DNA from: Roseiflexus sp.
GTDB taxonomy: Bacteria; Chloroflexota; Chloroflexia; Chloroflexales; Roseiflexaceae
Direction: 5' to 3'
DNA: 64,000 bases
NCBI GenBank assembly: GCA_017743475.1
Contig: JAGHYV010000014.1
Span: 1-64,000 of the forward strand
The first letter of the stretch is position 1. The number at the start of each line of letters is the position of its first letter. A model generated the notes under the pieces. The model saw nothing but the letters and a program-made list of their open reading frames with translations. It made no database searches and was not told the origin of the DNA. Shown here piece after piece: positions 13,908 to 47,552 of the stretch. A program made the translations under genes and the position numbers.

Positions 13908-14062
13908 CATATTGAGCATTGCAGTATGCACCTCTTGCCGTCGGGCTAAAATCCTCAGTATCCAAAGCGAAGCCCGCCTGCGCGGGCGATTTCTTCAAAG
14001 ACCATAAGCACTCGGCTATACGGGACAAAGCCCACCTGCGTGAGTGAGAGCAGAGCAATCGT
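13908..14062 (-). repeat. Dispersed hairpin repeat, two-unit copy
   Basis: On the minus strand the region has two GC-rich hairpin units. One reads TCGCCCGCGCAGGCGGGCTT and the other CACGCAGGTGGGCTTTG. They are joined by a TATGGTCTTTGAAG-like linker and ATAGCCGAG boxes, and end with AGCCCGACGGC. The same arrangement occurs at 27868-28020, and a single-unit copy lies at 51430-51525. Confidence 0.7.
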
Positions 14063-14806: not shown

Positions 14807-15325
14807 GAGGACTCCACCTCGCAAGGAGGAAACGCATGCCAGTGAACGCAATTGCGTTTGTGGATGGCGGAAGAGACGCGCTTCGTCCCCAATGTGCGTC
14901 GTGTGGTTCGCTATGATACCGCACACGAGCGATGCCTGTCAATGGACTCGCAATAGTATCGATGACTTCACTGCTGAGACACTGAGCGCGCAGAGAACGC
15001 CAAAAACAAAACGTGGTTCGATGCGCGGCGAAGCATACGCCTGAGCCAGACAATCATTCATTTTCTCTGTGAGCGCTGCACCCTTGCGGTGACATATCCT
15101 TTTGCAGTGGACTCGTCGATAGAAGAATCCGGGCGCGCCAGCGTCGTGCGGCAGGTAATATTCTGCACGCAGATGCAGTGCGTCGCTCACGTACTTTGTG
15201 CATGTATGGTACAATCTTTCATGCCGATATACAGCGCGTTCGCGCGGTGGGCAACGGTGACGACCGCTGTCGCGCTTATTGACGGGCATTGTAGAATCAC
15301 GTCCATCGTGCAAGGAGGGCGCAGT
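14807..15325. other. Gene-free divergent region with degenerate palindromic remnant
   Basis: These 519 bases between the divergent esterase and O-methyltransferase genes hold no convincing ORF. Near 14964-15000 there is a degraded element (ACTGCTGAGACACTGAGCGC, then GCAGAGAACG) like the one near 30960. No clear promoter pair could be fixed, apart from an AAGGAGG ribosome site just before the plus-strand gene. Confidence 0.5.
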
Positions 15326-15979
15326 ATGCGTGACAATATCACCAACATCGCGATCGAAGATTACCTGGTCGAGCTGATGCCACCGCGACCGCAAGCGCTT
15401 GCTGAACTCGAGCGTCAGGCGCGGGAGCATGGATGGCCCCTAGTCGGCCCGGTCGAGGGTCAGTTCCTCTACATGCTGGCGAAGATGCACGGCGCGCGCG
15501 AAGCGCTGGAGATCGGCGTTGCCACCGGTTATGCCGCTATCTGGCTGTTGCGTGCCATTGCCCCAGCTGGCGGGCATTTGACGGCAATCGAGCGTAACCC
15601 GGAGCGGATCGCACTGGCTCGTACGTATGTCGCCCACGCTGGCTATGGCGATCATCTCAATATCATCGAAGGGGAATGGTTCAGCTCTCTCGAACAGATG
15701 CAAGGACCGTATGACCTTATCTTCCTCGATATTCTGCGTCATCTGAGCGACGAGCGCGATTCGTTACGCGCACTCGAACTGTGCGTGTCGCACCTGCGCC
15801 CCGGCGGGCTGCTCATCGCCGACAACGTGCTGTGCAGTGCACTGGTGCTTGAAGACGATGCAGCGCCTATTGTGCGCGGCATCCAGGAGTTCAACCGCGC
15901 CATCATGACCCACCCGCGCCTTGAATCGGTCATCGTGCCGTTACGTGACGGCGTGGGCATCTGTCGCAAGCGCGATTGA
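15326..15979 (+). CDS. SAM-dependent O-methyltransferase (family 3, caffeoyl-CoA type)
   Basis: The 217-residue product matches the small-molecule O-methyltransferase family 3 pattern. It has ALEIGVATGYAAIWLL for SAM binding, HLTAIERNPERIALAR, DLIFLDILRHLSDE (metal and catalytic region) and GGLLIADNVLCSALV. ATG 15326 follows AAGGAGG by 7 nt; a much longer in-frame ATG at 15089 gives an N-terminus without family features. The substrate is unknown. It converges on the membrane protein gene 4 nt downstream. Confidence 0.88.
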   Translation: MRDNITNIAIEDYLVELMPPRPQALAELERQAREHGWPLVGPVEGQFLYMLAKMHGAREALEIGVATGYAAIWLLRAIAPAGGHLTAIERNPERIALARTYVAHAGYGDHLNIIEGEWFSSLEQMQGPYDLIFLDILRHLSDERDSLRALELCVSHLRPGGLLIADNVLCSALVLEDDAAPIVRGIQEFNRAIMTHPRLESVIVPLRDGVGICRKRD

Positions 15980-20511: not shown

Positions 20512-21273
20512 CTAATGGAGCACAATGGCTTCACCGGTCGTAGCGGCGCCATCAGGTCCGGCAAGGCGCAGCGCTGTGATGGCGACCTCCTCTGGCGACA
20601 TAACACGTTGCTGACCACTGCGCGACAGCAGCGCCTCGCGTGCTTCTTCCAGGGTACGCCCGGTTTTCGCAGCCAGTTCACTGATTGCGTTTTTCATCAT
20701 ATCGGTTTCGACCCAGGCGGGGCAGATAGCATTTGCAGTGATATGGTAGCGTTGTAATTCGAGCGCCAGGGAACGCGTCAGACCGAGCAGACCATGCTTT
20801 GCGGCGCTATAGGCAGCTGAAAATGGCATACCAACCAGCGCTGCCATCGAGGCGATATTGATAATCCGTCCGCCGCCACGTGCAATCATATCGGGAACAA
20901 TTGCTTTGCAGCAATAATAAGCGCCGTTGAGATTCACCTGAATGATCCGTTCCCAAAGCGCATCATCTGTATCAGTCAGTTTTGCACTATAAGTAATACC
21001 AGCGTTATTAACGAGAATATCGAAGGGACCCACCGCCGCGCGCGCCTCGCTGACAGCGGCGTAGACCTGCACTGGGTCAGCGACATCACAGGTAACGGCA
21101 ACGGCGCGACCGCCACGCTGCTCAATCGTCGCACACACCTCATCCAGCATCTCCCGGTTGCGCCCGGCAACCGCCACCGTCGCACCAGCGCCCGAAAAGG
21201 TTAGCGCAATCGCCCGACCAATCCCGCGCCCACCACCTGTAATGAACGCCGTTTTCTCATTCAACGTGCTCAT
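20512..21273 (-). CDS. Short-chain dehydrogenase/reductase
   Basis: Classical SDR of 253 residues with FITGGGRGIGRAIAL for NAD(P) binding, NNAG, the catalytic Ser in INIASMAALVG and YSAAKHG with Tyr and Lys. The C-terminal half (ICPAWVETDMMKNAI, QQRVMSPEEVA) resembles 3-hydroxybutyrate dehydrogenases and FabG-like 3-oxoacyl reductases. The exact substrate cannot be read. It leads the minus-strand group with purL. Confidence 0.88.
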   Translation of the reverse strand: MSTLNEKTAFITGGGRGIGRAIALTFSGAGATVAVAGRNREMLDEVCATIEQRGGRAVAVTCDVADPVQVYAAVSEARAAVGPFDILVNNAGITYSAKLTDTDDALWERIIQVNLNGAYYCCKAIVPDMIARGGGRIINIASMAALVGMPFSAAYSAAKHGLLGLTRSLALELQRYHITANAICPAWVETDMMKNAISELAAKTGRTLEEAREALLSRSGQQRVMSPEEVAITALRLAGPDGAATTGEAIVLH

Positions 21274-21437
21274 ACGTGAACCTCACCGTCTGATATACAA
21301 TACTTCGACAGTCTGGAGAGCGCGCTCGCACGTAGTCTACCGCAGCGTCACTGTACGGTCAACTGTGGCAGTATTGTACCATCCTCTTGTCTCCCATTTG
21401 CACAACAAACTGCATTAAATTGCATCACATTAAGGGC

Positions 21438-21466
21438 TTGTAAAGCTTCCCGGTAGAGTGTATACT
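21438..21466 (+). promoter_or_regulatory. Sigma-70 promoter for the structured RNA
   Basis: TTGTAA (21438-21443), a 17-nt spacer and TATACT (21461-21466) form a good promoter. The predicted start is near A21473, about 420 nt before the likely start codon of the M50 protease gene. Confidence 0.75.
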
Positions 21467-21472
21467 ATTTCT

Positions 21473-21820
21473 ACAGCCCTGACAGAGTAACTTAGCGAAG
21501 GGCCCGTTCTTGAACAACCTGACGTACCCGCACCTGGCAAGCGATAGTACTGAAAAAGGCTGTCGTAAGCTGAGGGAAACGAGAGATTTTGGATCTGCTC
21601 GGGGAGACCAGCAAATACGCGCGGCAGTGAAATACCCGTTGCGCTAGGAGTCAGGTGCGGCGCTTCGAGATGATTACGGTAGCACGAGAGTGTACCATGT
21701 CATCTCAGAGACTGGTGATGTCGATATGTCCTGCATACAGGCGTACGAAGCAACCAGTTGAAGCAGTCAGGTTCAGTAAAGAACGAAGCGCGCTGAGTGA
21801 AAAGCAGGGCGTTCTCTTTT
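21473..21820 (+). ncRNA. Candidate structured leader RNA with alternative terminator pairing
   Basis: Hand-folding finds nested helices. GCCCTG 21476-21481 pairs with 21805-21810; CGTTCTT 21505-21511 with 21779-21785; AACCTGAC 21516-21523 with 21766-21773. The last encloses three arms. Arm 1 is an 11-bp helix (21528-21538 with 21650-21660, one G-U). Arm 2 is GAGATGA 21667-21673 with 21700-21706, capped by a hairpin with a GAGA loop at 21686-21689. Arm 3 is ACTGGT 21711-21716 with 21753-21758, holding a CCTG-CATA-CAGG hairpin. The 3' strand AGAACG (21780-21785) can instead pair with CGTTCT 21810-21815 before a T-run. I saw no hallmark of RNase P RNA, tmRNA, SRP RNA, T-box, cobalamin or TPP elements. 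It may be a cis-acting leader of the protease gene or a free RNA. Confidence 0.6.
21780..21820 (+). terminator. Conditional intrinsic terminator in the leader RNA
   Basis: AGAACG (21780-21785) pairs with CGTTCT (21810-21815), with a short inner GCT/AGC stem, and CTTTT follows. The helix is modest. Its 5' strand is also needed for the long-range helix with 21505-21511, so the two folds exclude each other. Confidence 0.55.
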
Positions 21821-21894
21821 AAGCAGTGCCCCCTACCACACCCCCTTGCAAACATTATTCAACCCCACGGAACGCCATGCTAGAATGGAGGCGA

Positions 21895-24800
21895 ATGGCG
21901 ACGTTCAGTGGTGCAACAACTCACGAACCCCAACCAACAGCTGCCAGCGCCCAACCACTTCCGGGCGGCATATGGGCTGCAGTGCGGCAGCGCGTTGCCG
22001 AACCTCCTGTAACAAACGTCCAGGTCTTCACGATCCCGCACGAGCGTGGCGTTCGACCATCGGAAGAACAGCGCTTGTGGACGATCCTGCGCGAACGGAC
22101 GAATCCGCAACTCTACCGCCCGCACGCCATTCCCGATGTGGCCGCCGATCCAGTCGTCGAAGGGGGACAGACTTATTATATTGTGCGCACCCCTCAGGGC
22201 GCCTATATTCGCCTGACCGAAGCACAGCACGAGGTCTGGCGGGCAATGGATGGCACGCGCACCATTGCTGAACTGGGACTGGACGCATTTCGTCGGCATA
22301 GCCTGATCCTGCCGATCGGTGAACTGGTTGCGACCCTCAAGGCGGAGGGGTTGCTGCTCGATAAGCCAGTAGGCGTGTACCGTGCAATCAATGAAGCGCT
22401 TGCTAGAGGAACAACCCGCACATGGGGGCGCCGGATCAGGCGCGTGTTGACGGGCGCAACACTCACCCTGCCCGGTATCGATGCTTTCTACAGCGCAATC
22501 TATCGTTGGGGCGGCAGATTGCTGTTTACCCGCGTTTTTGCCGTGCTTGCCAGCATCATCGCCCTCGCCGGAATTATCGCCTTCGGACTGGCAATGAGCA
22601 GTGGGGCTGAAACGTATGAGGTCATCAGACTCAACGGTTCAGTGACGCTTGGGCTGGCAGCACTCTGGGCAGTCACGCTTCTGTCCTTTGTGATCCACGA
22701 AAGCGCACATGCACTGGCGGTCAAACATTTTGGACGCACGCTGACTCGGGGCGGCGTGATGCTGTACTACGGCTTGCCCGCCGCCTTTGTGGACACCAGC
22801 GACATCTGGCGCTCGCCACGCTCCGCGCGCATTATCGTGTCGGCAGCGGGTCCTGCGGCAGATCTGCTGGTCGGCAGCCTGGCAGCCATCGCAGCATATC
22901 TGACGCCGGAAGCCACCATTGGGGCGATAGCGTACAAACTGGCATTTACCAGTTTCGTGTCGAGCGTCTTCAATCTGAATCCGCTCCTTGAACTTGATGG
23001 CTACTACATTCTTGTCGATCTGATGCGGATGCCGGATCTGCGCCGTCAGGCGCTGGCATATGTGCGCGGTCCGCTGTGGGACAAACTCGGCGCTCATCTG
23101 CGCATGCAATCGATGCACTGGATGCGCTGCACTTCCAGACGTCCGCAGGCTACGACGGTCAACCTGGACGAGCGCACACTGCCGTTCAGTCGCCAGGAGC
23201 GCGTGTTCGCGCTGTATGGAGCAGCCACGGCGCTTTACACTGCACTGGCGATCATCGGCGCCGCATGGTTCTGGCGTGCGCAGATCCTCGAACCCGCGCT
23301 CGAACTGTTGCGGGGAGTCTGGTGGCAACAGGTGATCGGCGCGCTGCTGATCCTGATCGTTGTGCTGCCAGCAGTTGCAGCCGTCCTGCTGGCTCTGTGG
23401 GAAGCAGGGCAAACCACGGTCGGCTGGCTGGTACGGCGCGGTTATGGACGGCAACCCGGCCTTCTTTCAGCTTTCGGCGTCCTGCTGGCGATCAGCGCAT
23501 CGCTGGCGGTTCTGGCAACCCAGGAGGGTGGGTGGAGATGGGTCGGTCTGGCGCTCGGACCGGCGCTCTGGATTGTGGCGCTCAACGCGCTGCTGGCTGT
23601 CCGCCCGTACTACCGCGGCGCCGCCATCTACCCGGCAATACTGGCGTTGATCGCAACGACAGCGCTTGCCGGGCTGGCTGGCATCGCGCGCATGCTCCCC
23701 ATATCTCCGGGCATCTGGGTGATGCTTGACGGGCTGGCGTTCGTCGGGTTGCTGATAGCGGGTTTTACCGCGCTCCTCGATGTGGATCTGCGCGCCGCGC
23801 CGCTGCGCGAATTGCTGGGAACCGCCGTCCTGCTCATGGCTGCATTCGCAATTGGTGGAGCGGCGCTCTTCAGCGCCCAGGCGGTCTACCCCACGGCGGG
23901 GGCGCTCACGCTCCTGATCACGGCAGCGCCAGCATACTTCGGCGCGCTGGCGCTGGCGCTCCTCCTGCAACACCTGTTCGGTCTGGCAGACTCGCGGATG
24001 GTTTGGGCGTGGGCGTTGCTCTGGGCAGGCGTCCTGGTCAAAACGGCTGGCTATATTGCCGATCTGCACGGGCGCGGTCTGGCGCTCGATGTGCTGGGAT
24101 CGGGATTGTGGGCGACGGCATGGCTGGTGCACCTTGCAACGCTCCGCCATCTCACGCTGAGCGAATTTCGCTGGGAACACATTCCCAATATGAGCGAAAG
24201 CGACCGTCTGGCGCGGGCATTTCAATTGACGTACCACGGGTGTTATGAGATGCTGCACTCGGTCTACGGTGAGCGCCGCGCCCGTGCGCTCGACGACCGA
24301 ATGGACATTCTGGCTGCCACGGCGGACTGGGATGTCACCCTGGATCACGAACGCGCACGGATTGGCGCACAGGTGCGAACTCTCCCGATTGCGGAGCAGG
24401 GTGCGCGGTTTGCCGAAGTGTTACGCTACATTGTCGCCGAGATCGAGCAGATTGCCGGTGCTGCATTTGCGCGGCGCTGCATTCAGGCGGCATACGATGC
24501 ACTGCCCTGGCCCGAACGTGAGACTGCCAGCCGCCTCTGCTTCCCCGACACGCCGTGGGCGCGTGAATTGTCGAGTTCGTTTGGCGACATACGCGCAGCG
24601 CGCCTGCGGTTACTGCGGCAGGTGGATATATTCCTGAACTGTGACGACGGAGAACTCGAGGCGCTGGCGTCCAGCGTCGTCGAACAGACCTGTGCTGTGG
24701 GCGCGACGGTGCTGCAATCTGGCGCTCCAGTTCCGGGCATCTGGATTATTGAAGCCGGAGAGATCATTGCCCGACGGGGCGGGCGCATCGTTGCCGAACT

Positions 24801-25410
24801 GCACCGCGGCGACGTTATTGGCGTTGAAGAGGTGCTGGGCGGTAAACCGTGTCTCTACACCTACCGCGCAACGGTCGCATCAAGCCTGCTCTACCTGCCG
24901 GCAGACGAATTTTTCCGCCTGACGGCCGAACGCGCACCGCACGCCGCAGACGGGATGGAGTCGGTAGAAGTTTTGCGTCTGCTGGAGCGTGTGCCGTTGT
25001 TCGCTGACCTGCCGCGCAACACGCTGCGCGGACTAGTCGCTATCGCCGAACAGCGCACCTACCCGGCGCGCACAGTCGTCGTGCGCCAGGGGACGCCGAG
25101 CGGGACCTTCTTCATCATACGCAAAGGCATAGCAGCAGTCGTCCACCGCGAGGCAGCAACTAACGGAGCGCCAGCAACGACCCGACCCATCGCGCGGTTG
25201 GGACCACAGGAATTCTTTGGTGAACTCGAACTGCTGCGCAACGCACCTCCGGTGGCGAGCGTCGTTGCACTCACACCGCTCACCGTGCTGGCATTGCCGC
25301 ATGCCGCCATCCAGGCGCTGGTTCACAGCGATGGCGGCGTGTCGCGGAGGCTGGAACGGATCGGCAGCGGGCGGTTGAAGGCGTTAGAGGGAGCGGAGCG
25401 GGGCAGGTGA
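21895..25410 (+). CDS. PqqD-like / M50 intramembrane protease / dual cyclic-nucleotide-binding protein
   Basis: The 1171-residue product has three parts. Residues about 70-150 look like a PqqD-type winged helix (RLTEAQHEVWRAMDGTRTIAEL). A polytopic region follows with the M50 zinc site HESAH (268-272) and the second-site segment NLNPLLELDGYY (Asp about 368), flanked by many membrane helices to about 760. After a soluble helical stretch, two cyclic-nucleotide-binding domains fill the C-terminus (from about 905 and 1030), the second with GTFFIIRKG and EFFGELELLRNAPPVASV. ATG 21895 lies just after TGGAGG; 21877 and GTG 21826 are in-frame alternatives. It follows the structured RNA and its conditional terminator. 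Inference: proteolysis or peptide processing gated by a cyclic nucleotide. Proteins with PqqD plus M50 are often tied to peptide maturation, but no precursor peptide was seen. Confidence 0.82.
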   Translation: MATFSGATTHEPQPTAASAQPLPGGIWAAVRQRVAEPPVTNVQVFTIPHERGVRPSEEQRLWTILRERTNPQLYRPHAIPDVAADPVVEGGQTYYIVRTPQGAYIRLTEAQHEVWRAMDGTRTIAELGLDAFRRHSLILPIGELVATLKAEGLLLDKPVGVYRAINEALARGTTRTWGRRIRRVLTGATLTLPGIDAFYSAIYRWGGRLLFTRVFAVLASIIALAGIIAFGLAMSSGAETYEVIRLNGSVTLGLAALWAVTLLSFVIHESAHALAVKHFGRTLTRGGVMLYYGLPAAFVDTSDIWRSPRSARIIVSAAGPAADLLVGSLAAIAAYLTPEATIGAIAYKLAFTSFVSSVFNLNPLLELDGYYILVDLMRMPDLRRQALAYVRGPLWDKLGAHLRMQSMHWMRCTSRRPQATTVNLDERTLPFSRQERVFALYGAATALYTALAIIGAAWFWRAQILEPALELLRGVWWQQVIGALLILIVVLPAVAAVLLALWEAGQTTVGWLVRRGYGRQPGLLSAFGVLLAISASLAVLATQEGGWRWVGLALGPALWIVALNALLAVRPYYRGAAIYPAILALIATTALAGLAGIARMLPISPGIWVMLDGLAFVGLLIAGFTALLDVDLRAAPLRELLGTAVLLMAAFAIGGAALFSAQAVYPTAGALTLLITAAPAYFGALALALLLQHLFGLADSRMVWAWALLWAGVLVKTAGYIADLHGRGLALDVLGSGLWATAWLVHLATLRHLTLSEFRWEHIPNMSESDRLARAFQLTYHGCYEMLHSVYGERRARALDDRMDILAATADWDVTLDHERARIGAQVRTLPIAEQGARFAEVLRYIVAEIEQIAGAAFARRCIQAAYDALPWPERETASRLCFPDTPWARELSSSFGDIRAARLRLLRQVDIFLNCDDGELEALASSVVEQTCAVGATVLQSGAPVPGIWIIEAGEIIARRGGRIVAELHRGDVIGVEEVLGGKPCLYTYRATVASSLLYLPADEFFRLTAERAPHAADGMESVEVLRLLERVPLFADLPRNTLRGLVAIAEQRTYPARTVVVRQGTPSGTFFIIRKGIAAVVHREAATNGAPATTRPIARLGPQEFFGELELLRNAPPVASVVALTPLTVLALPHAAIQALVHSDGGVSRRLERIGSGRLKALEGAERGR

Positions 25411-25414
25411 CGGG

Positions 25415-26278
25415 CTACACCGCCAGATCGAACGGCAGATCGCTGATGTCGCGCAGTCGTTTGCCATCGATCAGGGTGCGAAGCATCTCTTGCTGGTCTT
25501 GATTGTTCTTAACTGCAATCTCCAGTTCGTGCAGCGCCATGTGGTACACACAGTCCAGATCGCCAGTTCCAAGCGCCAGAGATGCAATACGTGTCGGCAG
25601 CGGCTCCGCAGTAACCGCGACAATATGCGGAGTATGACCCTTACGATTCCGGATCAAATTCATCGCCTCTGTTCGGATATTCTGACTTCTATCACTCCTG
25701 ATCGTCCACTTACAGGAAATACTGGCGTGAAGAATCGGTTTTGAATCCTTTCTTCTTCTGAGAGGAGAATACCTGACTATATTGTGATTGAGATCTAAAA
25801 GTGTCCCTTCCTTGTTAATCTCATCATCCGATACCGGAACTCTGGCGATGATTATATCAGGTTTGATAATGTAGTCTATCCCGAAAATGGATGCAAGCTC
25901 CTGGTTTTCTCGTACCATTCTTTCAACTTCGGACAGATGTTCATACTGGTCGAATTTGGATATTGCTTCAGCAGAATGAATCCATTTTCCTGGTCTCAAG
26001 TGATTGAGAAGCCTGAAAGCTTCGTATATAAAATCTCTCGTCAACTCCTCGAATAGTTTACCGGTTTGTTGATCGGAAAGGTGGGCTTGCCTGAAGTGAC
26101 TACATCCCATTTCTTTCAAAACACCAGAAGCAATATCTCTGCTCGACTTACTGCTTGAGTCAGCAAAGTTAGGATATCCTTCCGGTTTTATCCAGACAAT
26201 CTGTGAACAGATACGCTCGTGATATTTCTTGCGCAGATCAGAGAAGCTCTCTGAGGGGCTTGTAGAATCCGATAACAT
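25415..26278 (-). CDS. Type II restriction endonuclease, NgoMIV-like
   Basis: The 287-residue product has the active-site pattern of the NgoMIV/Cfr10I group: PD (Asp141), then ISCK with Lys190, and Glu204 exactly 14 residues after the lysine, as K187/E201 in NgoMIV. An upstream LFEELT glutamate may be the fourth acid. The flanking text (WTIRSDRSQNIRTEAMNLIR, ASLALGTGDLDCVYH) is also characteristic. The family cuts CCGG-containing sites such as GCCGGC or RCCGGY; the exact site here is inferred, not shown. The 5' end overlaps the methyltransferase 3' end by 41 nt. Both genes are much more AT-rich than the surroundings, indicating transfer. Confidence 0.85.
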   Translation of the reverse strand: MLSDSTSPSESFSDLRKKYHERICSQIVWIKPEGYPNFADSSSKSSRDIASGVLKEMGCSHFRQAHLSDQQTGKLFEELTRDFIYEAFRLLNHLRPGKWIHSAEAISKFDQYEHLSEVERMVRENQELASIFGIDYIIKPDIIIARVPVSDDEINKEGTLLDLNHNIVRYSPLRRRKDSKPILHASISCKWTIRSDRSQNIRTEAMNLIRNRKGHTPHIVAVTAEPLPTRIASLALGTGDLDCVYHMALHELEIAVKNNQDQQEMLRTLIDGKRLRDISDLPFDLAV

Positions 26279-27671
26279 ACTCCTCGTGCATCCTCTGTTG
26301 TATTTGAGATTTAGTATCGATATTGGCGCCAGCGGGCATCATGCGTCGGTTTCGATCCAATTGACGTACCCCAATTCGGGGAACCAGAAATCCAAGCGAC
26401 TCACCGATTTCACTAAGGCACTCAGGAATCTTTACATCCTGTCCGCGGATTTTTGAGTTTCCTACGACGAAAACAGCTGTTCCTCCCGGTTTTAAAACTC
26501 GAAGCATTTCTGACACTACATTCCTCATTTCCGAGTAGTATCTGTGAAGAACCAATCCCTTCTTCCTATCTATCGAGGATAATCTTTCGATGATATCCGT
26601 TGTATTCGGGGGAAGGGTGTTCAGATATACGTCCTTCGTTCCTTCTGAACCAATGTACTTCTTTCTTTGTACTGCGAGATCATCTATGGAATAACCGAAC
26701 CAGACGAGCGAAAATTTATGGGCACGCATATAATCGATCGCATTTGAAGCATAGGGCGGAGAAGTGACAATAAGATCGACGCACGACGAACTCAGGGGAA
26801 TATTCTGTGCGTTTCCGTAAGAAACATAAGTTTTCGGTCTCTCTATACGTTCTTCAAAAAGATCAAACAGATCGATCTGATTAGTAGAGAGACCTATTTC
26901 AAGAAGAGATCTCAGGTTTTGCATAAATCTTCGCTCGAATTCTTCAAAAGGGGAACGAATCTTCTTTGAGCGAACCCTTCCCGTATGCAAAGCATCTCTT
27001 CTAAGATCACCGACAACATTGCCATTCCAGTCTATAGCCGATCTAACCCGATGAGGTCGGGTATGTGCAAGGTCGAGCGCGAGAGAGACTCCTCCCGATT
27101 TTGTTATAATGATCGCAGAAAATGATAGCTTGAAGAAATCTCTCAGGTCTTCGTCATCAATCCTTTCTATCTCGTTCAAAATCGCTTTAAGTGCGATTTG
27201 AACGTCTCTTGAAAACCAGTAATTTACAAAATCCCTCGTTTTTTCATCCCAAAACACACTCAATTCCGATTCGATTTCACCCCTACATCGATAGAACGCG
27301 AACTTCGCGCGACTAACGATTTCTTTACCCAAAACTATGGCCTGGTGTTGATTTATGGACGATATCTTGGTTTTCGTCAGCAAAATAGCAAGCGGATCAA
27401 TATCGAATCCTATCGCCTTTCTCCCCAGCAGAAACGCTTCAAGCACAGTTGTTCCCGACCCCATCATCGGATCAAGAACAGTGTCGCCGGGAATAGTCAG
27501 CGACTGAATAAACTTTCTCGGAAGCTGTGGGGGGAATTTCGCAGGAAAAGCATGAAAGTTATGAGAGGCGTATCCACTATCCTGATCATGGAAATCGAGA
27601 TCCTCAGCAAGCAGGCGACTCAATTTCTCAAGAGCAGTCTGATTTTCAACTGTTGCTGCGGATGTCATCAA
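26238..27671 (-). CDS. DNA methyltransferase of the type II R-M system (SPPY amino-methyltransferase)
   Basis: The 477-residue product has the SAM site DPMMGSGTTVLEAFLLG (about 67-83) with FDIDPLA following, and a catalytic TSPPYASNAIDY at 303-314. SPPY marks exocyclic amino methyltransferases, most often N4-cytosine. The order is SAM motif first and catalytic motif later, with a long insert between. A further motif, GGTAVFVVGNSKI, lies near the C-terminus. TTG 27671 is 10 nt after AGGAGG; ATG 27668 is an alternative. It should protect the genome from the overlapping NgoMIV-like endonuclease. Low GC and codon use differ from neighbours. Confidence 0.87.
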   Translation of the reverse strand: MMTSAATVENQTALEKLSRLLAEDLDFHDQDSGYASHNFHAFPAKFPPQLPRKFIQSLTIPGDTVLDPMMGSGTTVLEAFLLGRKAIGFDIDPLAILLTKTKISSINQHQAIVLGKEIVSRAKFAFYRCRGEIESELSVFWDEKTRDFVNYWFSRDVQIALKAILNEIERIDDEDLRDFFKLSFSAIIITKSGGVSLALDLAHTRPHRVRSAIDWNGNVVGDLRRDALHTGRVRSKKIRSPFEEFERRFMQNLRSLLEIGLSTNQIDLFDLFEERIERPKTYVSYGNAQNIPLSSSCVDLIVTSPPYASNAIDYMRAHKFSLVWFGYSIDDLAVQRKKYIGSEGTKDVYLNTLPPNTTDIIERLSSIDRKKGLVLHRYYSEMRNVVSEMLRVLKPGGTAVFVVGNSKIRGQDVKIPECLSEIGESLGFLVPRIGVRQLDRNRRMMPAGANIDTKSQIQQRMHEEYVIGFYKPLRELL

Positions 27672-27867: not shown

Positions 27868-28020
27868 TAGCCCGCGCAGGCGGGCTTTGCCCTGGATAGC
27901 CGAGGGCGTATGGTCTTTAAGTAATTATTCCGCTCTAGCCCGCGAGGCGGGCTTTGCATTCCATAGCCGAGGGCTTCAGCCCCACGGCTAGCGCGGTAGA
28001 GCGGAATAAATGCTCAATCT
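27868..28020 (+). repeat. Dispersed hairpin repeat, two-unit copy
   Basis: Two hairpin units, AGCCCGCGCAGGCGGGCTTT and AGCCCGCGAGGCGGGCTTT, are each followed by a TAGCCGAGGGC box and separated by GTATGGTCTTTAAG. The end carries GCCCCACGGC, a GGTAGAGCGGA box and AATCTCCATGAGCC. The tail box recurs at about 28176-28208 and in the 51.4 kb copy. Confidence 0.75.
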
Positions 28021-44929: not shown

Positions 44930-45021
44930 ACGCCGAAACCGCAGCGCGCATCGCAGCCGAACAGCGTATTGCTGCGCTTGAAGCTGAACTCCGCCGACTG
45001 CGTGGCGAGGGAAATGCCTGA
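44248..45021 (+). CDS. Uma2-family (DUF820) PD-(D/E)XK protein, copy 2
   Basis: The 257-residue product is identical to copy 1 for its first 229 or so residues and differs only in the coiled-coil tail, where NAETAARIAAEQR replaces ITAEQR. The downstream end (AALEAELRRLRGEGNA) is again the same protein sequence, but with three silent base differences (ctacgcggcgaa versus ctgcgtggcgag), so the tail is older than the main identical block. It has no promoter copy of its own and may be read from the first gene's transcript. Confidence 0.88.
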   Translation: MTTVTETPTADRFPYGWRYVERVAPDGTVTFEQIPLTLEDVAHPQEGDQVTHSDLHQRICAYLYNVLRGLLASIPGAVVLHDVRIAWDVPDLKAHGPDLAVIFGVREYKNWSTFDVAVEGVRPTLIIEVTSPETRAIDLMVKLDEYDLAGVEFYVIVDMVQRRGQVAPRLLGYRRTPTVYGVLSPDAQGRLWIEPLQIWLGVQEQAVVCYDASGKPIGDYPDLQAALNAETAARIAAEQRIAALEAELRRLRGEGNA

Positions 45022-45035
45022 TACCCCGTTTCCTG

Positions 45036-45044
45036 TGGTACAAT
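45036..45044 (+). promoter_or_regulatory. Extended -10 element positioned for leaderless transcription
   Basis: TGG precedes TACAAT (45039-45044) and the ATG of the lytic transglycosylase starts at 45051, seven bases later. The predicted transcription start coincides with the start codon, and no Shine-Dalgarno is present. Confidence 0.5.
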
Positions 45045-45050
45045 ATAACT

Positions 45051-47552
45051 ATGTGTTGTCTTAGAGGCGTGTTGGTAATTGCACTGTTGCTCATTGCCTG
45101 TACGCCAGAAATCGCAACAAACGTTCCGGCCCCTTCTCTGATCGAAGCAGCGACGCCAGTCGGAACTCAAGGTACGCCGGAAACCGCAACAAATGTTCCG
45201 TCTCTTCCTGATGCTCCTCTAGCTGCTTCACCACAGCAGCGTCCCGACACGGCATCTCCGGAGGTGCCGGGAACACTGCAACCTGATTCGCCACCCGCTC
45301 CCCCCGGCGGTTCACCTTCCTCTGCCGCCTCGCCTGACGAGTTGCTTGCGCGTGGGCTGGAGCGGCGCGAAGCCGGCGACTATGATGCGGCCGCTGAGGC
45401 ATTCTTTGCGGCTGCCAATGCCGCGCCGGGAACATCGGCGGGACGTATGGCACGCTTCTACCTGGCAGAAAGTTTTGCTCTCCGCCAGCGCTGGACATCG
45501 GCCGTCGAAGCACTGAATGCATTTGTTGCCGACGGGATCCAGGACGATCTGACAGCGCGGGCATGGTTTTGGATTGCGCGCGGGCATGAAGAAGCCGGTT
45601 CACATGCTGCGGCGGTCGCTGCATATGAGCAGTTCCGATCCTTCACCACACCTGCTGAGACGTATGCTCGTCTGCGACAGGCAGCTCAAGAACGTGTCCT
45701 TGGCCGCCTTGATGCTGCTGCTGCAAACTATGAGGCGGTTGCGCGTAGCGATCTTGCGCGCAGTCAGCGCGCTGCGGCATATGAAGCGGCTATTCAGGTG
45801 CGTCGTGACCTGGGACAGCGTGATAGAGCGTTGCAACTGGCAAATGAACTGCTGACACTGGCAGAGCAACCGGCATACCGCGCCCGCCTGCTGGTTGAAC
45901 TTGCCGACCTTCCATACAGCCAGGGAGACGCAGCGCTGGCGCGCGCCTGGTTGATCGAGGCAATCGAACGCGCTCCAGCTTCGCCATCGGCGCTAGCGGC
46001 GCTTGACCGATTGCGTGCAGATATGGGGGCGACTGTACCGCCGAAACTGGCAGCCCGCGTCTACGAGGCACATGGCCGCTGGTCCGACGCAGTTGCTGCG
46101 CTTGATGCTGCACTCGCCACGGCGGACGACTCACAGCGCGCCGATCTGCTCCGGCGACGAGCTCTGGCGCTGCGTGGTCTGGGAGATTTTCCGGCAGCAC
46201 TGGCAGGGTTCGATGCTGCAATTGCTGAGGCTGGCGAGAGCGACGCTGGCATTCAGGCGCGCCTCGACCGAATTCAGACGGTCGGGCAGAGTGGCGCCAC
46301 CGAAGCAGCCATTCAGGGATACCGTGATTTTGCTGCGACGTTCCCTGATGATCGCCGCGCTCCAGAGGCACTGCGTCGCGCTGCGACATTGCTCGATAGA
46401 CTTGGTAATGGCGATGCAGCGGCGCAGCAGCGCATCGACCTAGGTCGGCGATATCCATCTCTGCCACTGGCGCAGGAAGCCTGGTTCGCAGGCGGGCTGC
46501 ATCTGTTCGCGTCTGGTCAGGCGGTGCAGGCACACCAGGTGTGGAACGAGCTGGCTGCCGTTGCCACGGGTGCCGTGGCGCTGCGGGCGCGGTACTGGGC
46601 AGGACGCGCAGCGCTCGCCACGGGCAACGGCGAAGAAGGGCGCACATTGCTGGATCAGGTGATTGCGTTTGCACCAGACTCCTACTTTGCTGCGCGTGCC
46701 CGCGCGTTGCTCAATCGCCAGGAAACGGGCGCGATTGCGCCCGATGACCCGATGAGCCCAGATGACTGGCGCTCCATCGAGGAGTGGCTTGCCACATGGG
46801 CTGGCGAACCGCCGCCCGACGTAACCAATCCGGCTGATGACCCCACAGTCCAGCGCGCGCGCGAACTCGACGCTCTTCATCTGCGCGTCGAGGCAATGGC
46901 GGAATGGTCTGCAGCGCTGGCAACGCGCAATGATAACCCATATGCGCTCTACCTGCTGGCGCGCTATGCATATGAACAGGGTGCTGCCAGCATTGCACTG
47001 CGCGCTGCTAACCGCCTGATCCGTCTCTCCCCTGGCGGTGCAGCGTCAGACGCACCGCTTGCGCTGCGGCGCATCCTCTATCCAGTTCCATTCACAGCGA
47101 CGGTACTGACACGATCACGAGAGTTCGGCGTCGATCCTGCTCTCATGTATGCGCTGCTGCGCCAGGAGAGCGCCTTTGACCCGGCAGCAACCTCATGGGC
47201 TGGAGCACGCGGCCTGGCGCAGGTGATGCCTGCAACCGGGCGGGGTATCGCCCAGGCGCTCGGAGTAACCGGATTCCGCGAAGCAGATCTCTATCTCCCT
47301 GATCTAAGCATTCGTTTTGGTGCGTTCTATCTCAGTCGTCAGATGACAGCAATGAATGGAAGCATCGAAGGAGCGCTTGCCGCGTACAACGGTGGACCCG
47401 GTAATGCGCGACGCTGGTCGGGCGGCGCGCCTATCACCGATCCTGATCTGTTCGCCGAGCGGATCGACTTCGAAGAGACCAGAAATTACGTCAAGTCGGT
47501 AATCGCCCAGTACGATGTTTATCGGCGTCTGTACCGCTGGGACGGGGAATGA
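45051..47552 (+). CDS. Slt-like soluble lytic transglycosylase, lipoprotein
   Basis: Peptidoglycan-cleaving enzyme of 833 residues. The N-terminus has a lipoprotein signal peptide with lipobox LLIAC (Cys17), then a Pro/Thr/Ser linker. Residues about 95-640 are TPR-like helical repeats (LERREAGDYDAAAEAFFAAA; RWSDAVAALDAALATAD). The C-terminal SLT domain has the catalytic Glu in ALLRQESAFDPAA, followed by GARGLAQVMPATG and GALAAYNGGPGNARRW. The superhelix-plus-SLT plan matches E. coli Slt70. It probably acts outside the membrane in wall turnover. The gene appears leaderless. Confidence 0.92.
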   Translation: MCCLRGVLVIALLLIACTPEIATNVPAPSLIEAATPVGTQGTPETATNVPSLPDAPLAASPQQRPDTASPEVPGTLQPDSPPAPPGGSPSSAASPDELLARGLERREAGDYDAAAEAFFAAANAAPGTSAGRMARFYLAESFALRQRWTSAVEALNAFVADGIQDDLTARAWFWIARGHEEAGSHAAAVAAYEQFRSFTTPAETYARLRQAAQERVLGRLDAAAANYEAVARSDLARSQRAAAYEAAIQVRRDLGQRDRALQLANELLTLAEQPAYRARLLVELADLPYSQGDAALARAWLIEAIERAPASPSALAALDRLRADMGATVPPKLAARVYEAHGRWSDAVAALDAALATADDSQRADLLRRRALALRGLGDFPAALAGFDAAIAEAGESDAGIQARLDRIQTVGQSGATEAAIQGYRDFAATFPDDRRAPEALRRAATLLDRLGNGDAAAQQRIDLGRRYPSLPLAQEAWFAGGLHLFASGQAVQAHQVWNELAAVATGAVALRARYWAGRAALATGNGEEGRTLLDQVIAFAPDSYFAARARALLNRQETGAIAPDDPMSPDDWRSIEEWLATWAGEPPPDVTNPADDPTVQRARELDALHLRVEAMAEWSAALATRNDNPYALYLLARYAYEQGAASIALRAANRLIRLSPGGAASDAPLALRRILYPVPFTATVLTRSREFGVDPALMYALLRQESAFDPAATSWAGARGLAQVMPATGRGIAQALGVTGFREADLYLPDLSIRFGAFYLSRQMTAMNGSIEGALAAYNGGPGNARRWSGGAPITDPDLFAERIDFEETRNYVKSVIAQYDVYRRLYRWDGE

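Follow-up and report, generated by a model that had tools for sequence, protein, structure and literature searches.

The intergenic DNA between an SDR gene and an M50 peptidase gene of Roseiflexus sp. raises the question of whether it encodes a leader that controls the downstream gene or an RNA gene in its own right. The window, a stretch of 64,000 nucleotides, holds this locus near position 21,500. An initial annotation offered two readings: a sensing leader of the M50/cNMP gene, switched by a strand that pairs with either of two partners, or a separate RNA roughly 350 nt long. The parts of the RNA are as follows.

21476..21811, plus strand: RNA body, from the P1 5' strand through the P1 3' strand plus a G, delimited by homologues, covariation and MFE z-score
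21476-21481 / 21805-21810, plus strand: P1, the end-closing helix GCCCUG/CAGGGC, paired in 7/7
21490-21496 / 21792-21798, plus strand: P2, 93.9% of cells paired, a double change in 1 pair and one-sided changes in 2 pairs
21505-21512 / 21777-21785, plus strand: P3, an interrupted helix, 95% paired, 2 pairs with double changes
21516-21523 / 21766-21773, plus strand: P4, 8 bp, AACCUGAC/GUCAGGUU, 98.2% paired, double changes in 2 pairs
21528-21538 / 21650-21660, plus strand: P5, 11 bp with G-U pairs, CCGCACCUGGC/GUCAGGUGCGG, the most conserved domain
21541-21566, 21569-21612 and 21618-21643, plus strand: the P5 hairpins P5a, P5b and P5c
21662-21666 / 21760-21764, plus strand: P6, which closes P7 and P8
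21667..21706, plus strand: P7 hairpin with a GNRA tetraloop at 21686-21689 (GAGA in the window), 100% paired, double changes in 6/15 pairs
21710-21716 / 21753-21759, plus strand: P8 outer helix, 100% paired, double changes in 5/7 pairs
21721-21731 / 21740-21748, plus strand: P8 inner helix, within the P8 hairpin 21710..21759

P1 and P2 join the ends of the RNA. P3 and P4 then run to a junction where P5, with its three hairpins, meets P6, which bears P7 and P8. The closed multi-branch fold, including the 8-bp and 11-bp helices, had been described in the initial annotation and is present. The plus strand of 21473-21820 folds at an MFE of -143 kcal/mol (z -6.6), and 0/100 dinucleotide shuffles fold as low. 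The minus strand of the same region is weaker, at -118 kcal/mol (z -4.3). Across all seven homologues the z-scores range from -5.9 to -9.6 at 37 C and from -6.5 to -10.3 at 55 C.

The compensatory changes that the initial annotation had proposed looking for in homologous regions are found. An alignment of the seven RNA sequences yields 110 consensus pairs, with standard pairing in 97.5% of 768 base-pair cells. Double-sided changes occur in 23 of these pairs compared with 10.4 in shuffles, with 0/500 shuffles reaching 23, in a sample of seven sequences where many pairs of P1, P5 and P5b are invariant and carry no independent support. Sliding the pairing partner as a control leaves 0-8 pairs with double-sided changes, against the 23 of the true register. 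P7 and P8 are the site of most compensatory changes. Sequence is nearly constant across the P5 domain, including P5b and its purine-rich internal loop GGAAA/GGGAGA. The six core pairs of P1 are invariant, and its seventh pair, where present, changes compensatorily. The RNA at 21476-21811 has the covariation-backed secondary structure of a stand-alone structured noncoding RNA, and it is virtually certain that it is a structured RNA under selection. An alternative in which the 5' strand of P4 pairs with the 3' strand of P5 suits the genus, is broken in G005 and was set aside.

The GAGA tetraloop noted at the outset caps P7. The loop reads GAGA, GAAA, GCAA, GCAA, GAAA, GCCA and GCAA in the seven species and stays GNRA in six of them. 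Because the GNRA form is kept despite these changes, the alignment suggests that the P7 loop makes a tertiary contact.

That the locus is a small protein-coding gene or a chance fold can practically be discounted. The window copy does contain a 50-codon ATG frame; however, no such frame is listed in G009, G005 lacks the ATG and G013 has a shorter piece only. No reading frame is common to the seven homologues, and the sequence changes track base pairing, which already contradicts this reading.

BLASTN finds homologues of the RNA in 6/6 of the Roseiflexus-genus genomes examined and in one genome of a sister genus, G005 (n=7). In GTDB r220 contigs, a scan for an exact pattern returned five matches, all in Roseiflexus or Chloroflexi/Chloroflexota MAGs. 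The six other homologues share 75-94.5% identity with the window copy. In each comparison with the adjacent SDR coding DNA the RNA is the more conserved of the two (94.5 vs 90.8%, 83.8 vs 79.7% and 75.0 vs 72.6%), and the intergenic stretch between SDR and RNA, at 61-82% identity, falls below the RNA in every pair. Two covariance models extended the search. R1, a core model of the P5 domain, was run on 82 genomes of the order and 158 of the class, and R2, a model of the full-length RNA, on 400 of the phylum, 26 of the family and 36 chosen from the order; neither returned a member beyond the seven, with a first-look filter in the larger searches that scored few candidates per genome and that a diverged relative could escape. 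Phages, plasmids and viral contigs searched for the RNA gave no match. A weak match in G058 (19 bits) aligns well at the 5' end only, lies inside a protein-coding gene and is no tRNA; it was set aside as chance.

The elements that would start and end the transcript lie on either side of this fold, and a second promoter faces away from it.

21334..21362, minus strand: divergent promoter, TTGACC and TAGACT with a 17-nt spacer, probably that of the SDR gene
21438..21466, plus strand: RNA promoter, TTGTAA (21438-21443) and TATACT (21461-21466) with a 17-nt spacer
about 21473, plus strand: predicted 5' end of the RNA, three bases before P1
21812..21820, plus strand: U/C-rich tract UUCUCUUUU, immediately 3' of P1, the probable 3' end

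The RNA promoter is present as initially annotated and is the sole sigma-70-like site on the plus strand within 21250-21960. TTGTAA, TATACT, their 17-nt spacing and the 9 nt from TATACT to P1 are invariant in 7/7, while the sequence of the spacer diverges. The RNA has, in all seven homologues, the promoter of its own at a fixed distance from P1 that characterizes a stand-alone structured noncoding RNA. Upstream of this promoter, 21401-21443 forms a genus-conserved block with a 10-bp near-repeat, TGCATTAAAT / TGCATCACAT, and an invariant ATTAAGG precedes the -35 element. This block is possibly an UP element or a regulator site.

At the other end, the tract that follows P1 is pyrimidine-rich in 7/7 (69-100% of 16 nt). 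No canonical hairpin terminator was found downstream of the RNA. In this genome tmRNA and RNase P are each followed by one; read-through, or processing out of a longer transcript, is therefore possible for the RNA.

The locus is best explained as a noncoding RNA gene in its own right, about 340-350 nt long and probably stand-alone rather than a leader. The second reading of the initial annotation is well supported by the invariant promoter, the closure by P1 and the pyrimidine tract, and further by the lack of an ORF, the variable spacer and the separate candidate promoter of M50. The housekeeping-type promoter would start transcription near 21473, and the RNA would fold into its closed multi-branch structure with the ends joined by P1 and P2. 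Transcription would most likely end in the U-rich tract just 3' of P1. Its interior holds P5, a domain of three hairpins that hardly varies, and P7, an arm with a GNRA cap. Most likely the RNA would act in trans, either as the RNA component of a ribonucleoprotein or as a scaffold that folds by itself.

The leader reading, the first of the two, turns on the gene downstream.

21878..21886, plus strand: TGCTAGAAT, the extended -10 assigned to the M50/cNMP gene, with 8 nt between it and the ATG at 21895
21895..25410, plus strand: M50 peptidase with two cNMP-binding stretches (Pfam PF02163, PF00027), a neighbour and not part of the RNA

Read as a cis leader, the RNA would regulate the M50/cNMP gene in the manner of a riboswitch or attenuator, through a terminator in competition with the P3 strand. 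The proposed alternative pairing, of 21779-21785 with 21505-21511 or with 21810-21815, can be drawn in the window, and both duplexes have -6.3 kcal/mol. The switch did not survive comparison, however. The terminator arm GAACG/CGUUC occurs only in G000 and in G009, its nearest relative, and is absent from 5/7 species. The consensus fold of the proposed terminator region has 3 pairs, and no species goes beyond z -1.7 against shuffled sequence. A conserved mutually exclusive expression platform, the mark of a riboswitch or attenuator, was looked for across the homologues and not found. Orientation and order are the same in 6/6 genomes with M50 on the contig, yet the distance from the end of the RNA to the M50 ATG varies widely in these six (83, 92, 205, 322, 379 and 448 nt).

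By strict consensus M50 lacks a strong promoter of its own, and no canonical terminator separates it from the RNA. Against this stands the extended -10 TGCTAGAAT, a 9-mer that is identical in 6/6 genomes, 7-8 nt ahead of the M50 ATG, within surrounding sequence that has diverged. A -10 box so close to the ATG implies a leaderless transcript, and as judged from its sequence the M50/cNMP gene is likely leaderless, transcribed from its own candidate promoter. Bacterial leaderless genes are described as marked by TANNNT some 12 bp ahead of the start, and Chloroflexi are among the phyla reported to have such genes (PMC3160421). A similar TGnTAnnnT box lies ahead of the candidate starts of two long ORFs of the window, 44988-47549 and 14978-15976.

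Four other genera (G001, G006, G007 and G014) have M50 homologues without the RNA, and the regions upstream of these homologues, searched with filters off, contain nothing resembling it. Because the order SDR, RNA, M50 is constant wherever the contig permits, the case against a link between the RNA and M50 rests on these other genera and on the separate -10 of M50. Like riboswitch and attenuator leaders, the RNA is structured and precedes a gene in the same orientation; unlike them, it combines a variable distance and no conserved expression platform with a downstream gene that has its own candidate start. That it is a leader of the M50/cNMP gene is quite improbable.

A different switch would reside in the ends of the RNA itself.

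21476-21480 / 21499-21503, plus strand: alternative 5' hairpin GCCCU/AGGGC, mutually exclusive with P1 and P2

In a bistable RNA the 5' GCCCU would pair either with AGGGC (21499-21503) or with the 3' CAGGGC, and formation of P1 beside the U-rich tract would set termination against read-through. Both partners of GCCCU are invariant in 7/7, the hairpin 21476..21503 forms in all seven at -6.7 to -10.3 kcal/mol, and each has the U/C tract after P1. The invariance of the outer pairs makes covariation neutral, however, neither for nor against, and M50 has a candidate promoter of its own. In addition, for end-closed RNAs a short-lived 5' hairpin is a usual stage of folding. The bistable reading, which could be combined with the stand-alone one, is unlikely.

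If the RNA is a gene of its own, a known class has to be considered, above all a highly diverged housekeeping RNA such as RNase P, tmRNA, 6S or another Rfam class. With tmRNA, RNase P and 6S, all stable RNAs, it shares ends joined by a helix and a promoter of its own, and its size is like that of RNase P and tmRNA. Nevertheless, a scan of 21250-21950 against the 4227 families of Rfam 15 gave no match at the gathering level or up to E=10, in agreement with the initial remark that known RNA classes do not fit. Furthermore, the genome has all three of these RNAs at other loci: RNase P RNA on C56 (E 4e-20; the RNA locus has no match to RF00010), tmRNA (E 4e-69) and 6S (E 9e-10). A diverged housekeeping RNA is already contradicted by these matches and is very improbable. 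The RNase P RNA of this genome (L015:1501-1947) is itself atypical, a full-length match that scores only 69 bits where the gathering score is 100, and an earlier tool paper predicted rnpB in Roseiflexus as partial regions only (PMC2996960).

The family is undescribed in Rfam, and no published account of a Roseiflexus RNA of such kind was found in the literature searched. Its kind, the orphan large bacterial noncoding RNAs, is already known. In kind, the closest published counterpart, likened here by description, is the smtA motif or 'Soda Lake RNA' of Thioalkalivibrio. Both RNAs have more than 350 nt or nearly so in a complex covarying fold, are confined to one genus of extremophiles or its kin, have no assigned function and occupy an intergenic locus with divergent neighbour genes; the host and the neighbours differ (PMC11109978). 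OLE RNA is likewise large, highly structured, bacterial and found in extremophile hosts, but it has about 600 nt, occurs mainly in Gram-positive bacteria and has known protein partners, and the locus has no Rfam match to it (PMC12286853, PMC9723947). The raiA-motif RNA, or ModT, is another bacterial structured noncoding RNA; it is present in more than 2,500 species compared with 7 genomes for the Roseiflexus RNA, again with no Rfam match (PMC11706538).

Few bacterial RNAs of more than 300 nt combine covariation of such quality with no known function. As far as searched, this RNA belongs to a small clade and to one fixed locus, and it is conserved above the neighbouring coding DNA. A bolder proposal, and a rather unlikely one, is that the family is unique to Roseiflexus and its nearest kin, was born in that lineage and has a biochemical activity of its own, as a ribozyme, an RNA-only assembly or the core of a new RNP. 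The size of the RNA would allow cryo-EM, SHAPE or pull-down, and through it one can test how a lineage gains its own complex RNA.

Two further features of the window were recorded. The palindrome GCCCGCCTGCGCGGGC, called CRISPR-DR28 by Rfam, occurs as single copies at 13966-13989 and 27868-27891 in opposite orientation; because no array is present, these look like dispersed palindromes and not CRISPR repeats. On the minus strand, 25415-27671 encodes a type II restriction-modification pair, an NgoMIV-like enzyme (PF09015, E 3e-103) and a DNA methylase (PF01555).
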